Assembly: GCF_019797825.1 (NCBI RefSeq) | Contig: NZ_CP081855.1 | Coordinates: forward strand, 1,054,001-1,118,000 | Direction: 5' to 3' | From: Limosilactobacillus panis | GTDB taxonomy: Bacteria > Bacillota > Bacilli > Lactobacillales > Lactobacillaceae | DNA: 64,000 nt | Shown here: piece after piece, positions 60,306 to 64,000 of the stretch | Position numbering within the stretch: position 1 is the first letter of the stretch | Layout: every line of letters starts with the position of its first letter | Position numbers and translations under genes: made by a program | The notes under the pieces: model-generated | What the model saw: the letters and a program-made list of their open reading frames with translations, nothing else | The model's database searches: none | Told to the model about the DNA's origin: nothing

Positions 60306-62525
60306 TTATTTTCGAAAGAGTCGCGATAACAGCCCCTTCTTCTTTGTGTCTTGCTGATTTTTCATCTGTTTCATCATCTGGTTCATTATTTTAGTCTGGT
60401 CCTGAATAACCTGAGCGTTTTGCTCATCACGCTTTTTCTGGAGCTTGAGCATCTCCGCTAGCTGATCATCTTGCCGTTCACTCTTATGGACTTTGTTGTA
60501 ATAGTTGCGGATAAGGGGTTCGCCGATGTAGTGGTCAAACTTATCAATATTTAAAATCATCCCGTTATCGTACTGGTAAATAGCGATTCCTAACTCGCGG
60601 GGAAACATATTGAAGTAATTATCGAGAGTCTGGTTAATATTTTCATAAGCACTCCCCTTCAAATTATTGAAGATGGCCTTGGAAACTGTAAATTGCTGGT
60701 CGTCCCCCGATGTAAAGGCAACGTGCTGGAAGCCGTCATCTCTAATCAGCATCTTCCAGGTAATCCGGTTACGGTCTACCTTATAGTTATAGTTCTCATC
60801 GATGATATCTGCCAACTCACTTTCCAGGCCAAAATGAGCGAGCAGGTCCTTTACAATGGCTTTCGTTTGGCTCAGGTAATCATCAATTAAGTTGCTTTCT
60901 TCAATTCCAGAAAGATTATTCAGCCGGTCGTTCAGTTCATGAGTAACATAGCGGTAAATGTGGTCGTTTGTATTGTTGACCAGAATTTCAAAGTTATACT
61001 TTTGCTGGTCCATTTCCAGCCACCCGGCTTCAAAGGAAAGGTAGTAGACCCGTTTAGTGATTTCCTCGAGGTTGTTAATGCTACGGCTTCCGGCGTTATG
61101 GTTCATCGCAAAGATATTAATATTGTGGATACCTTTGATCGTGTTGGACCACTGTTTGATGGCGTTAGTGGAAACCTTACTGTGGAGGAAATTATCATTT
61201 AATTCATCAATGATCATTGGTGAAACAAACCGCCCCGACTGTAAATAGTGGCCAAGAAAGTCGACTGCCCGGTTTGTGTGGGAACTAATTCCCTGGTTAA
61301 TTTGTAGGTACTCGATACTATCTGAATGGTCACCAATAAAACGCTTGAAGTAATCGCGGACTAAGAGGGTCTTCCCCGTTGTTCCGCGACCAATGAGGAC
61401 CATTGAAACGGGGACCTGGTCGGGACTTTTGGCAAAGTTAGAATCTCGATAAATTTGACGGATTTTCCAAATCAAGGGAGCCGTCATTAAATACATAAAG
61501 GTAGAGAGCGCTTGTTGGCTCTCGTCGCGTACCTTGTTATAACGGAAACTTTTAATAATCTGGACAAAGTTTACAACGTCCTCTCGACTAACGATACTGA
61601 TATTTGCCTGGAGGGGATAAAAGCGGTTGGTCGTTGGGTCCTGGACGATCAACTCACCACTATCGCTATATGACCACATTGGCTTTGGGTACAAAGAATT
61701 TGCCGGGACGTCAGTTATCTGCTTATCATCCTTGAAGGACTGGTAAACAATTTTTTGAACCTTCTTTCGGGTTTGCTGTGGTGTCCGGCGCTTATTCCCT
61801 TTCGGCGTGTAAATAGCTTTGACGATCTCCGTTGCGGCCTGAGGAAGCAATTCGTAGGAATCATCGATGGCAGCCTTCTTGGCAACAACTTTACGCACGT
61901 CTTCGGTAGAAAATTTAACTTTATTGCTTTCAACCGCGTTTAAGACATCCGTTGTCAATAATTCACCAATCTCTTGGCGACTTTTATTCTTCAGCTGGTC
62001 AATAATCTTGCGGTCGAGGTATTCGGCGCTATCCTCATTGAAGTTCTTTAGAAATAACTTATGGTGAGCCTGATATAATGAATCGTCAGTTGTCCCAGTA
62101 TACATCCACATTAACTCGTGGTTAGAACTTGTTGCTCGCCTAGTTAAATTCATTGATCCATTAAATAAGCGGAAATGATCACTCTGGCGAAGGATGAAGT
62201 ACTTACTGTGAAATAATGGTCCCTTGGTAAATTTAAGGTGAAGGGTCTGGTCCGCCAGGCGGTCAATAAAATTATCGCTGGTGTTTGCTAAGGCTTTCGC
62301 ACGTTGGCTGATGTTAAAGAATTGGTTCATCGCTTGACTGGTCTGCTGATCTTCCAGCCCCAAGATTAGGTTTACCTGTTTGAACCGGGATAATAGCTCC
62401 TGATCAATGATCTTAAAGCTACTAACAAAAGAAACTCCCGCGAAGTAATCGTAACCATCCAGTAGTGAAAAGAAATCAGGTTGGTTAAGCATCCTCTGCT
62501 CATTGAGATCGTATATTGTCAGCAT
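60306..62525 (-). CDS. PLD-like nuclease / P-loop ATPase fusion protein
   Basis: A 739-residue protein. Residues 1-160 form a phospholipase D-type nuclease domain with one HKD-like motif: FHSKYF (His106, Lys108) and GSMNLT (Gly123 to Asn126). A linker with a basic stretch (GNKRRTPQQTRKK) leads to a AAA+-like P-loop domain: Walker A GRGTTGKT (379-386), Walker B MIIDELND (437-444), a sensor-like NIFAMNHN and an Arg in EEITKRVYYLSFE. The C-terminus is a Met/Gln/Lys-rich coiled coil ending KKGLLSRLFRK. A single HKD motif implies a dimer. ATG 62525 follows GGGAGG. The layout suits a DNA-targeting, possibly defensive enzyme, but function is inferred only. Confidence 0.8.
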   Translation of the reverse strand: MLTIYDLNEQRMLNQPDFFSLLDGYDYFAGVSFVSSFKIIDQELLSRFKQVNLILGLEDQQTSQAMNQFFNISQRAKALANTSDNFIDRLADQTLHLKFTKGPLFHSKYFILRQSDHFRLFNGSMNLTRRATSSNHELMWMYTGTTDDSLYQAHHKLFLKNFNEDSAEYLDRKIIDQLKNKSRQEIGELLTTDVLNAVESNKVKFSTEDVRKVVAKKAAIDDSYELLPQAATEIVKAIYTPKGNKRRTPQQTRKKVQKIVYQSFKDDKQITDVPANSLYPKPMWSYSDSGELIVQDPTTNRFYPLQANISIVSREDVVNFVQIIKSFRYNKVRDESQQALSTFMYLMTAPLIWKIRQIYRDSNFAKSPDQVPVSMVLIGRGTTGKTLLVRDYFKRFIGDHSDSIEYLQINQGISSHTNRAVDFLGHYLQSGRFVSPMIIDELNDNFLHSKVSTNAIKQWSNTIKGIHNINIFAMNHNAGSRSINNLEEITKRVYYLSFEAGWLEMDQQKYNFEILVNNTNDHIYRYVTHELNDRLNNLSGIEESNLIDDYLSQTKAIVKDLLAHFGLESELADIIDENYNYKVDRNRITWKMLIRDDGFQHVAFTSGDDQQFTVSKAIFNNLKGSAYENINQTLDNYFNMFPRELGIAIYQYDNGMILNIDKFDHYIGEPLIRNYYNKVHKSERQDDQLAEMLKLQKKRDEQNAQVIQDQTKIMNQMMKQMKNQQDTKKKGLLSRLFRK

Positions 62526-62682
62526 CGTAGATCCTCCCATTTGTATTCCTCTCCTATTCTACTAGATTGCAAAATGATTGGCGAATGTAAGGCGCTATTC
62601 AAAATCTGTTTATCAATAGTTTATCGACAGAATACTGTGTTTACGGCTTCTAAAAGGTTTTAATATTATTTAATAAAATAAT

Positions 62683-62710
62683 TTGACTTTTATTTTCATA
62701 ATCATATAAT
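62683..62710 (+). promoter_or_regulatory. Consensus promoter of the candidate small RNA
   Basis: TTGACT (62683-62688), a 16-base AT-rich spacer and a perfect TATAAT (62705-62710), in an AT-rich stretch with no gene downstream for about 240 bases. Confidence 0.8.
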
Positions 62711-62716
62711 AATTGT

Positions 62717-62866
62717 GTTAGGTAGTTTATGGATTTACTACTTAACCTCCCCCAGAATCTAAATAATGCTCTTTCCTAGAAACCATTTGAGTATTACTTA
62801 GTGTGAGACTTCCCTATCTCACCTGGTCGACATCATCCCTCTTTGATGCCGGCCTCTTTTTATTTA
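62717..62866 (+). ncRNA. Candidate small RNA with C-rich loops
   Basis: About 150 nucleotides between a consensus promoter and an intrinsic terminator, with no reading frame or ribosome site. Predicted parts: a 10-pair stem GTTAGGTAGT/ACTACTTAAC (62717-62746); CCTCCCCC unpaired from 62747; a single-stranded AU-rich section with TTTCCT; a stem GTGAGA/TCTCAC (62803-62822) with loop CTTCCCTA; and the terminator stem GGTCGACATCA/TGATGCCGGCC (62825-62854) with loop TCCCTCTT and T tail. C-rich loops of this type pair with Shine-Dalgarno sites in known Gram-positive sRNAs. Confidence 0.65.
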
Positions 62867-62875
62867 TACCCGGTT

Positions 62876-63934
62876 TGTAAAATTAAGTTAGAAAAACAAA
62901 AAAACCATTTGTGATAGACTTTTGAGTATCCCTAATCAAAAGAAAGGCAATCACAAATGACCTACAAACATCTTACCACACGTGAATTAACTCTCATAGC
63001 TGAATTTTATCGTCAAGACACTCGAGCTTATCGAGTTGCTAAATCACTAAAGCGTAGTGCTGAAACAATTTATCGAGTTTATCGTTACTTGGATACGGGC
63101 AAGACAATTACGCAGTATTTAAAGCAGTACCAACGGAATAAGCGCCGTTGTGGTCGTAAACCAATGACGTTACCTGATGATGAAGTAAGTTACATTACCA
63201 AGCAAGTTAGTCAAGGTTGGACGCCAGATACCATTATTGGTCGGTCAGAGAAGAAAATCAGTTGTAGTATGCGGACGCTTTATCGCATGTTTGCTCGTGG
63301 TCAATATGGCTTTGATGTTAAGCAGTTACCAATGAAAGGTAACCGTCACCCAAATGGCTACGTTGAACGGCGTGGGAAAGCTGGCCATCTTGGTCGCAGT
63401 ATTTACCAACGTTACCGCGATTTTCCACATTACCAACATGAATTTGGTCATTTAGAAGCTGATACGGTTCAAGGGAAAGCTCACCATGGTGCTGTGATGA
63501 CCCTAGTAGAACGGATTTCAAAAGTTGAGATTGTTTTGAATGTCCATCACAAAACGGCCGAGAGTGTGAACTATTATTTGGACCAATGGCTATCAAAACA
63601 GCCTCGTCATCTTTTTAAGTCCATCACCTTTGACAACGGTAAGGAATTCGCGGGCTGGCGTGAGATTGCCAATAAGCACGATATTCAGACATATTTTGCG
63701 GAAGTCGGTGCGCCTAATCAGCGAGGGCTAAACGAAAACACCAACGGTATTCTTCGGCGTGATGGTCTGAGTAAAAAGAAAGACTTCCGTAATCTCCCGG
63801 ATGAATTAGTTACTCAGCTAATGTCATACCGGAACAATATTCCACGGAAGTCACTGCACTACCGCACACCCATTGAGGTATTCATGGAGAATATCACAGA
63901 TGCACAGTTAGTTTCTTTCTAACTTAATTTGACA
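62876..63934 (+). mobile_element. IS30-family insertion sequence
   Basis: About 1.06 kb with imperfect inverted ends TGTAAAATTAAGTTAGAAA (left, 62876-62894) and its near complement at 63916-63934 (one difference), enclosing one intact transposase. It inserted directly after the terminator of the candidate small RNA. Confidence 0.82.
62957..63922 (+). CDS. IS30 family transposase
   Basis: An intact 321-residue transposase. N-terminal HTH: YKHLTTRELTLIAEFYRQ and AYRVAKSLKRSAETIYRVYR; DDE core: HLEADTVQG (Asp), ITFDNGKEFAGW (Asp) and NENTNGILRRD (Glu), then the C-terminal LHYRTPIEVF. AGAAAGG precedes the ATG. No lesions, so it may be active. Confidence 0.95.
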   Translation: MTYKHLTTRELTLIAEFYRQDTRAYRVAKSLKRSAETIYRVYRYLDTGKTITQYLKQYQRNKRRCGRKPMTLPDDEVSYITKQVSQGWTPDTIIGRSEKKISCSMRTLYRMFARGQYGFDVKQLPMKGNRHPNGYVERRGKAGHLGRSIYQRYRDFPHYQHEFGHLEADTVQGKAHHGAVMTLVERISKVEIVLNVHHKTAESVNYYLDQWLSKQPRHLFKSITFDNGKEFAGWREIANKHDIQTYFAEVGAPNQRGLNENTNGILRRDGLSKKKDFRNLPDELVTQLMSYRNNIPRKSLHYRTPIEVFMENITDAQLVSF

Positions 63935-63945
63935 TTTCAGGATAC

Positions 63946-63985
63946 AAAAAAGCCACCTATTAACTGATAGGTGACTTTTATTTTT
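63946..63985 (+). terminator. Terminator-like hairpin right of the IS30 element
   Basis: AAAAAAGCCACCTAT pairs with ATAGGTGACTTTT (one mismatch) around TAACTG, followed by TATTTTT. It lies outside the element and probably ended a gene interrupted or displaced by it, or one beyond the window. Confidence 0.7.
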
Positions 63986-64000
63986 CAAGCTTACTCACCT

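Follow-up and report, generated by a model that had tools for sequence, protein, structure and literature searches.

The window, by which we mean the whole stretch of 64,000 nucleotides analysed here, carries on its plus strand a predicted small RNA (sRNA) gene that has a promoter and a terminator of its own, which confirms an observation made in an earlier note on this DNA. The gene unit spans 62683-62861 and includes a predicted RNA of about 145 nt. Its promoter (62683..62710) consists of a -35 TTGACT, a 16-nt spacer and a -10 TATAAT, as the earlier note had claimed. It matches 11 of 12 consensus bases and scored highest among the 11 promoter-like sites between 60000 and 64000, where shuffled sequences had a mean of 8.7 sites. 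The predicted start is 62717, the G of GTTAGGTAG, 7 nt 3' of the -10, and the predicted transcript (62717..62861) is supported by its fold (z -5.5) and by a covariance model of its body, R1. The transcript ends at an intrinsic terminator (62825..62861), formed by hairpin 4 (62825-62854, loop UCCCUCUU) and TCTTTTT, so that the proposed terminator hairpin was recovered in the fold. A simple terminator scan did not report it, probably because a mismatch interrupts the stem.

Upstream of the sRNA, the minus strand encodes a PLD-like protein (60306-62540) that has a PLDc_2 match. Its gene (744 aa) looks related to a second one in the same neighbourhood, L018 (16339-18627; 762 aa), as both have a PLD-like start and an ATPase-like middle; the latter has similar neighbours in L. 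oris. Just past the terminator and outside the sRNA unit, an insertion element (62869..63941, plus strand, end points by eye) starts 7 bases beyond the U-tract. This insertion of about 1073 bp, which we take to be IS30-type, shows a 3-base duplication, ATA, by eye and contains a transposase frame (62957-63922, plus strand) whose integrase-core match is below the Pfam cut-off. L. panis DSM 6035 has no insertion at the corresponding place (L005). A weak Rfam match to the trpB motif (63897-63986; 29.4 bits against a cut-off of 59, E 1.1), which extends over the insertion's end and the hairpin that follows it, is probably due to chance.

The transcript folds at -39.9 kcal/mol compared to a shuffle mean of -22.6 (sd 3.1), a value that none of 200 shuffles reached, and the opposite strand of 62717-62861 folds with z -2.7. 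Four homologues described below gave z values of -5.6 to -7.1, so all five sequences fold strongly. Hairpin 1 (62717..62746, plus strand as are all elements of the fold) has 10 pairs and a 10-nt loop. It is followed by a single-stranded C-rich segment, S1 (CUCCCCCAGAAU, 62747..62758), which is the predicted main seed. Hairpin 2 (62759..62801) has a 17-nt loop that contains UUUCCUAG and is invariant across the five sequences, and hairpin 3 (62803..62822) has the loop CUUCCCUA, which reads CCUCCCUA in three of the four other genomes. S1 is unpaired in the minimum-energy folds of all five 145-nt sequences; when 155 nt were folded, its 3' half paired with bases beyond the terminator in three of the five. 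The three exposed C-rich segments of the earlier note were found where it had placed them: CCTCCCCC (62746-62753) between hairpins 1 and 2, single-stranded except for its first base, CTTCCCTA (62809-62816) as loop 3 and TCCCTCTT (62836-62843) as loop 4. A fourth pyrimidine- and C-rich segment, UUUCCUAG (62772-62779), lies within loop 2.

We searched for the sRNA in 50 Limosilactobacillus genomes and in 397 genomes drawn from the family. A DNA search found it in five of the 50, namely the window's own genome (G000; 2.13 Mb in 3 contigs), L. panis DSM 6035 (G061), Ca. L. intestinipullorum (G013), L. oris DSM 4864 (G020) and the L. oris-like G060. The latter two are nearly the same species, with 98% identical ispE genes. 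A sixth genome also matched at E <= 0.01 and was dropped, as its match (G025; 24 nt, E 0.007) seems to fall inside a reading frame. The covariance model search that the earlier note had proposed returned the same five of 50 genomes with one match in each, using stricter filters that could lose weak matches. Among the 397 family genomes it recovered three of the five again and one further match (G255; 25.7 bits, E 0.014), which we dropped as chance since it has a different fold without C-rich loops. No match covering the sRNA was found in phage and plasmid collections, where weak matches in 11 and 5 records, respectively, each spanned at most ~20% of the query and fell in the AT-rich part that holds the promoter. 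One 18-mer, searched as an exact match, did not occur in viral contigs. At permissive thresholds, the region gave only noise below the cut-offs of 4227 Rfam families (best E 2.5), and thus the sRNA matches no known family there. The L. oris locus, searched at the same kind of threshold, also had nothing near a cut-off; its best match, ctRNA_p42d (24.1 of 50 bits, E 0.039), falls on the L. oris terminator hairpin.

The rsmH and ispE genes of 27 genomes were used for a tree, which leaves out G000 as its rsmH was not parsed. In this tree, a clade with a support of 0.99 unites L. panis, L. oris, G060 and Ca. L. intestinipullorum. This clade also includes six genomes that lack the sRNA, and therefore either losses or transfer of the sRNA must be assumed. 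The branch on which this would turn has a support of 0.79.

The sRNA body is 95-100% identical between the genomes. For comparison, ispE is 76-86% identical in nine of the ten genome pairs, the tenth being the L. oris pair. The promoter region (-42..-1) is 82-98% identical across the five genomes, and the 100 nt preceding -42 align only within two close genome pairs. The -10 reads CACAAT in Ca. L. intestinipullorum and the -35 reads TTGATA in L. oris and G060. All 136 stem cells counted in the alignment pair (136/136), compared to 29-46% in a control in which the partners were slid. Four stem pairs vary, on one side each, and retain a standard pair every time. As no body stem pair changed on both sides, covariation proper is absent from the body, and the shuffle control says nothing. 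The exception to this conservation is the terminator, where the hairpin is retained with a differing sequence; three genomes have a clearly distinct helix here, whose pyrimidine-rich loop reads AUCCC in Ca. L. intestinipullorum and UCUUUCC in L. oris and G060. Stems and C-rich loops are thus conserved in five genomes, as the earlier note had anticipated for a functional RNA, and this conservation shows that the feature exceeds chance.

To look at possible partners, we paired five exposed segments of the sRNA with 2020 start regions of G060, obtained by our own simple gene calling with approximate starts. The top two partners of S1, as CUCCCCCAG, were both genes for surface proteins with a KxYKxGKxW signal. 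Their leaders are in L056 (from 3127, plus strand) and L101 (from 19152, minus strand). Their energies, including the opening cost, were -22.7 and -20.9 kcal/mol, and the best energies of 20 shuffles averaged -15.7 (sd 2.0). Pfam identified MBG domains and a signal peptide in one of these proteins and a signal peptide only in the other. A cruder surface class, 32 G060 genes selected by a regular expression, supplied five of the top 20 S1 partners. None of 150 full shuffles reached this number, and six of 150 did so when shuffling was restricted to the flanks around a fixed core, CUCCCCC. The AUC of this class (0.637) was reached by seven of 150 full shuffles and by 121 of 150 core-kept ones, which places most of the S1 signal in the core and its G-run partner and little in the flanks.

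For the KxYKxGKxW class itself, we compared 13 PF19258 genes of G060 with 2001 others, after removing 19 of 24 surface start regions from the background, and S1 reached an AUC of 0.893 (p 4.9e-7, optimistic because the top G060 matches were known before this class was chosen). None of 200 shuffled S1 segments reached this value. Loops 3 and 2 had AUCs of 0.738 and 0.663 for the same class, and pairing of these genes with the anti-Shine-Dalgarno (anti-SD) sequence was not raised (AUC 0.422). The 11 YSIRK-signal genes of G060 were not enriched, as 47 of 200 shuffles reached their value (28 of 30 YSIRK matches were usable). Four G060 genes (L072, L097, L099 and L103), helix-turn-helix-like by eye, have near-identical starts; their common leader, CTAACTCTAGGGGGAG, is strongly complementary to S1 (-20.0), and they are perhaps a mobile element.

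Across genomes, we used 57 of 59 PF19258 matches in the five genomes with the sRNA and 30 of 111 in ten genomes without it. GGGGAG occurred in 19/57 start regions of the former versus 2/30 of the latter (Fisher p 0.007), and GGGGGAG in 10/57 versus 1/30 (p 0.09). Tested against the set without the sRNA, with the four-species form of S1 for all genomes, the class was enriched in G013 (p 0.018), G020 (p 0.016) and G060 (p 0.001), and not significantly in G000 (p 0.13, 8 genes) or L. panis (p 0.37, 8 genes). The target prediction that the earlier note had proposed thus gave computed pairing with ribosome-binding sites in G060, and the window's own genome and L. panis gave no significant enrichment of this class. 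The S1 signal was weaker in Ca. L. intestinipullorum than in the L. oris-like genome, and 22 of 200 shuffled segments reached the contrast between genomes with and without the sRNA. G000 and L. panis each have nine near-complete S1 complements beyond the sRNA gene (five and four, respectively, in a reversed-pattern control), none of which is at a convincing start site. Both genomes carry a short, decayed-looking KxYKxGKxW frame that has kept a GGGGGAG ribosome site (L186, G000 C1:1654242-1654319, and L201 in L. panis).

A second candidate partner is a LysM-glucosaminidase gene of the autolysin type, matched in 48 genomes and compared at 29 of 30 loci. Its start has GGGGAG in 5/5 genomes with the sRNA versus 2/24 without it, an association that counts as few events because the five leaders look alike by descent. 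The strongest autolysin site (-20.0) was found in two genomes that lack the sRNA. High S1 scores also occurred at a lysylphosphatidylglycerol synthase-like gene and at a repeated gene that looks helix-turn-helix-like. The best G060 partners of loops 2 and 3 were rsmH and ispE, respectively, and we rejected both since the long complementarity is confined to the L. oris pair. Pairing of rsmH with loop 2 failed in both other species with the sRNA that were tested (the G000 start was not located), and pairing of ispE with loop 3 failed in G000 and G013 and was intermediate in L. panis (-18.1).

Considering the gene anatomy, the fold, the conservation, the lack of a match to a known family and the pairing enrichment in one genome, we suggest, with a probability of about 0.62, that this is the gene of a small regulatory RNA that acts in trans by base pairing through its C-rich segments, with surface-protein and autolysin mRNAs as candidate targets. 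The RNA would be transcribed from its own promoter and ended at its intrinsic terminator. Ribosome entry would be blocked by its exposed C-rich segments, which would bind G-rich Shine-Dalgarno (SD) regions of the GGGGGAG type; the most important of them would be CUCCCCCAG, which links hairpins 1 and 2, and the UCCC loop in hairpin 3. In L. oris and its close relatives at any rate, and perhaps also in Ca. L. intestinipullorum, the likely targets would include mRNAs of large secreted or wall-bound KxYKxGKxW-signal proteins and of the LysM-glucosaminidase.

In the alternative that survives best, which we nonetheless consider somewhat unlikely, an sRNA of this kind would act in trans on other mRNAs as its real targets, and the KxYKxGKxW genes of L. 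oris would be enriched only as a by-product of their unusually G-rich ribosome sites. The non-significant enrichment in G000 and L. panis despite an almost identical RNA, the reliance of the signal mostly on the CUCCCCC core and the high scores of the further genes named above would fit this explanation. Against it, 0 of 200 shuffled segments matched the G060 enrichment, and GGGGAG is rarer in the KxYKxGKxW class of genomes that lack the sRNA.

A bolder form of the preferred reading, an sRNA that pairs with surface-protein mRNAs, is speculative. Here, a lineage-specific master sRNA would set the surface coat, with CUCCCCCAG co-repressing KxYKxGKxW adhesins and the autolysin. The ribosome-binding sites of the class would have drifted to a private GGGGGAG, read at most averagely by the ribosome and best by the sRNA. 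The surface proteins of these bacteria matter for adhesion and biofilm. If the link to the surface class is true, one RNA regulator would be coupled to a signal-peptide class, and the sRNA is in any case a compact candidate that lends itself to testing, its seed segment and its target sites being named.

It is improbable that the RNA is instead a protein-binding decoy, whose C-rich loop repeats would sequester an RNA-binding protein in the way that the GGA loops of CsrB-type RNAs do. Short pyrimidine motifs are indeed repeated in the loops, and loops 2 and 3 are strongly conserved, but the contexts of the loops differ from one another. We know of no C-rich-binding protein of this kind in lactobacilli.

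Equally improbable is a role in cis, as an antisense RNA or a terminator element, at the neighbouring membrane-protein gene. This gene is convergent and adjoins the sRNA in each of the five genomes, although the insertion intervenes in the window, and in three of the five a terminator hairpin that has A- and T-runs could act for both genes. Its product, matched in 38 of 50 genomes, has an N-terminal hydrophobic stretch, a Ser/Thr-rich tail and no Pfam match. However, the sRNA body does not overlap the gene. In the window the two are separated by the insertion, and the RNA body nevertheless shares 98% identity with its L. panis counterpart. Moreover, the covariance model with default filters found no diverged sRNA copy near the gene at 27 loci of genomes that lack the sRNA. 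In each of the four other genomes the gene that follows the sRNA is convergent, so that the sRNA is not a leader there, and in the window the next same-strand gene is the transposase beyond the terminator. The sRNA thus has its own promoter and intrinsic terminator and is no leader of a downstream gene.

The earlier note's statement that the RNA has no coding capacity was nearly right, the exception being a 16-codon frame from the ATG at 62729 to the TAG at 62779. At that place G060 has a different, open frame of 10 codons (MDLLLNSPRI), a situation shared, by reading, by the three remaining genomes, and an A-to-G change within it in L. oris and G060 is synonymous, also by reading. A dual-function or peptide-coding RNA translated from 62729 is nevertheless very improbable, given that an extra C in the window shifts the frame to another peptide, the start region sits in hairpin 1 and only a weak AGG lies upstream.

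Among known regulators, the sRNA is most readily compared with LhrC of Listeria. Its description (PMC4132741) gives five copies, LhrC1-5, of 111-114 nt that depend on the two-component system LisRK and are controlled by it under envelope stress, with UCCC motifs that bind SD sites and the mRNA of a surface protein (an adhesin) as a target. Both are short RNAs of low-GC Gram-positive bacteria that carry UCCC-type motifs not only in loops but also in the unpaired stretch between stems; three such motifs are present in the window, and the fourth loop of L. oris and G060, UCUUUCC, lacks UCCC. Surface-protein mRNAs are also the candidate targets here. In contrast to LhrC, we found one copy per genome rather than several near-identical ones, with ~145 nt and four hairpins. 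The Rfam search had no match above noise, and LhrC itself was compared by that description. The same paper cites RNAIII, RsaE and SprD of S. aureus and FsrA of B. subtilis for a UCCC motif in mRNA pairing, a likeness that was likewise accompanied by noise-level Rfam matches only.

Streptococcal csRNAs share segments complementary to ribosome-binding sites, here as computed pairing in G060. Their promoters are under CiaR, for which PMC8186281 gives the repeat TTTAAG-N5-TTTAAG. Allowing up to 2 mismatches, this repeat had 11 matches in the window, none of them beyond 61944 or near the promoter of the single-copy sRNA. The likeness to LhrC and csRNAs claimed earlier therefore extends to architecture and presumed action and not to membership. 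Titles and abstract beginnings in one open-access library contained no characterised trans-acting sRNA of Limosilactobacillus. The best reading is that the sRNA would act like LhrC and csRNAs and belongs to neither; it would represent a new family within a known kind, that of the SD-masking, C-rich sRNAs.
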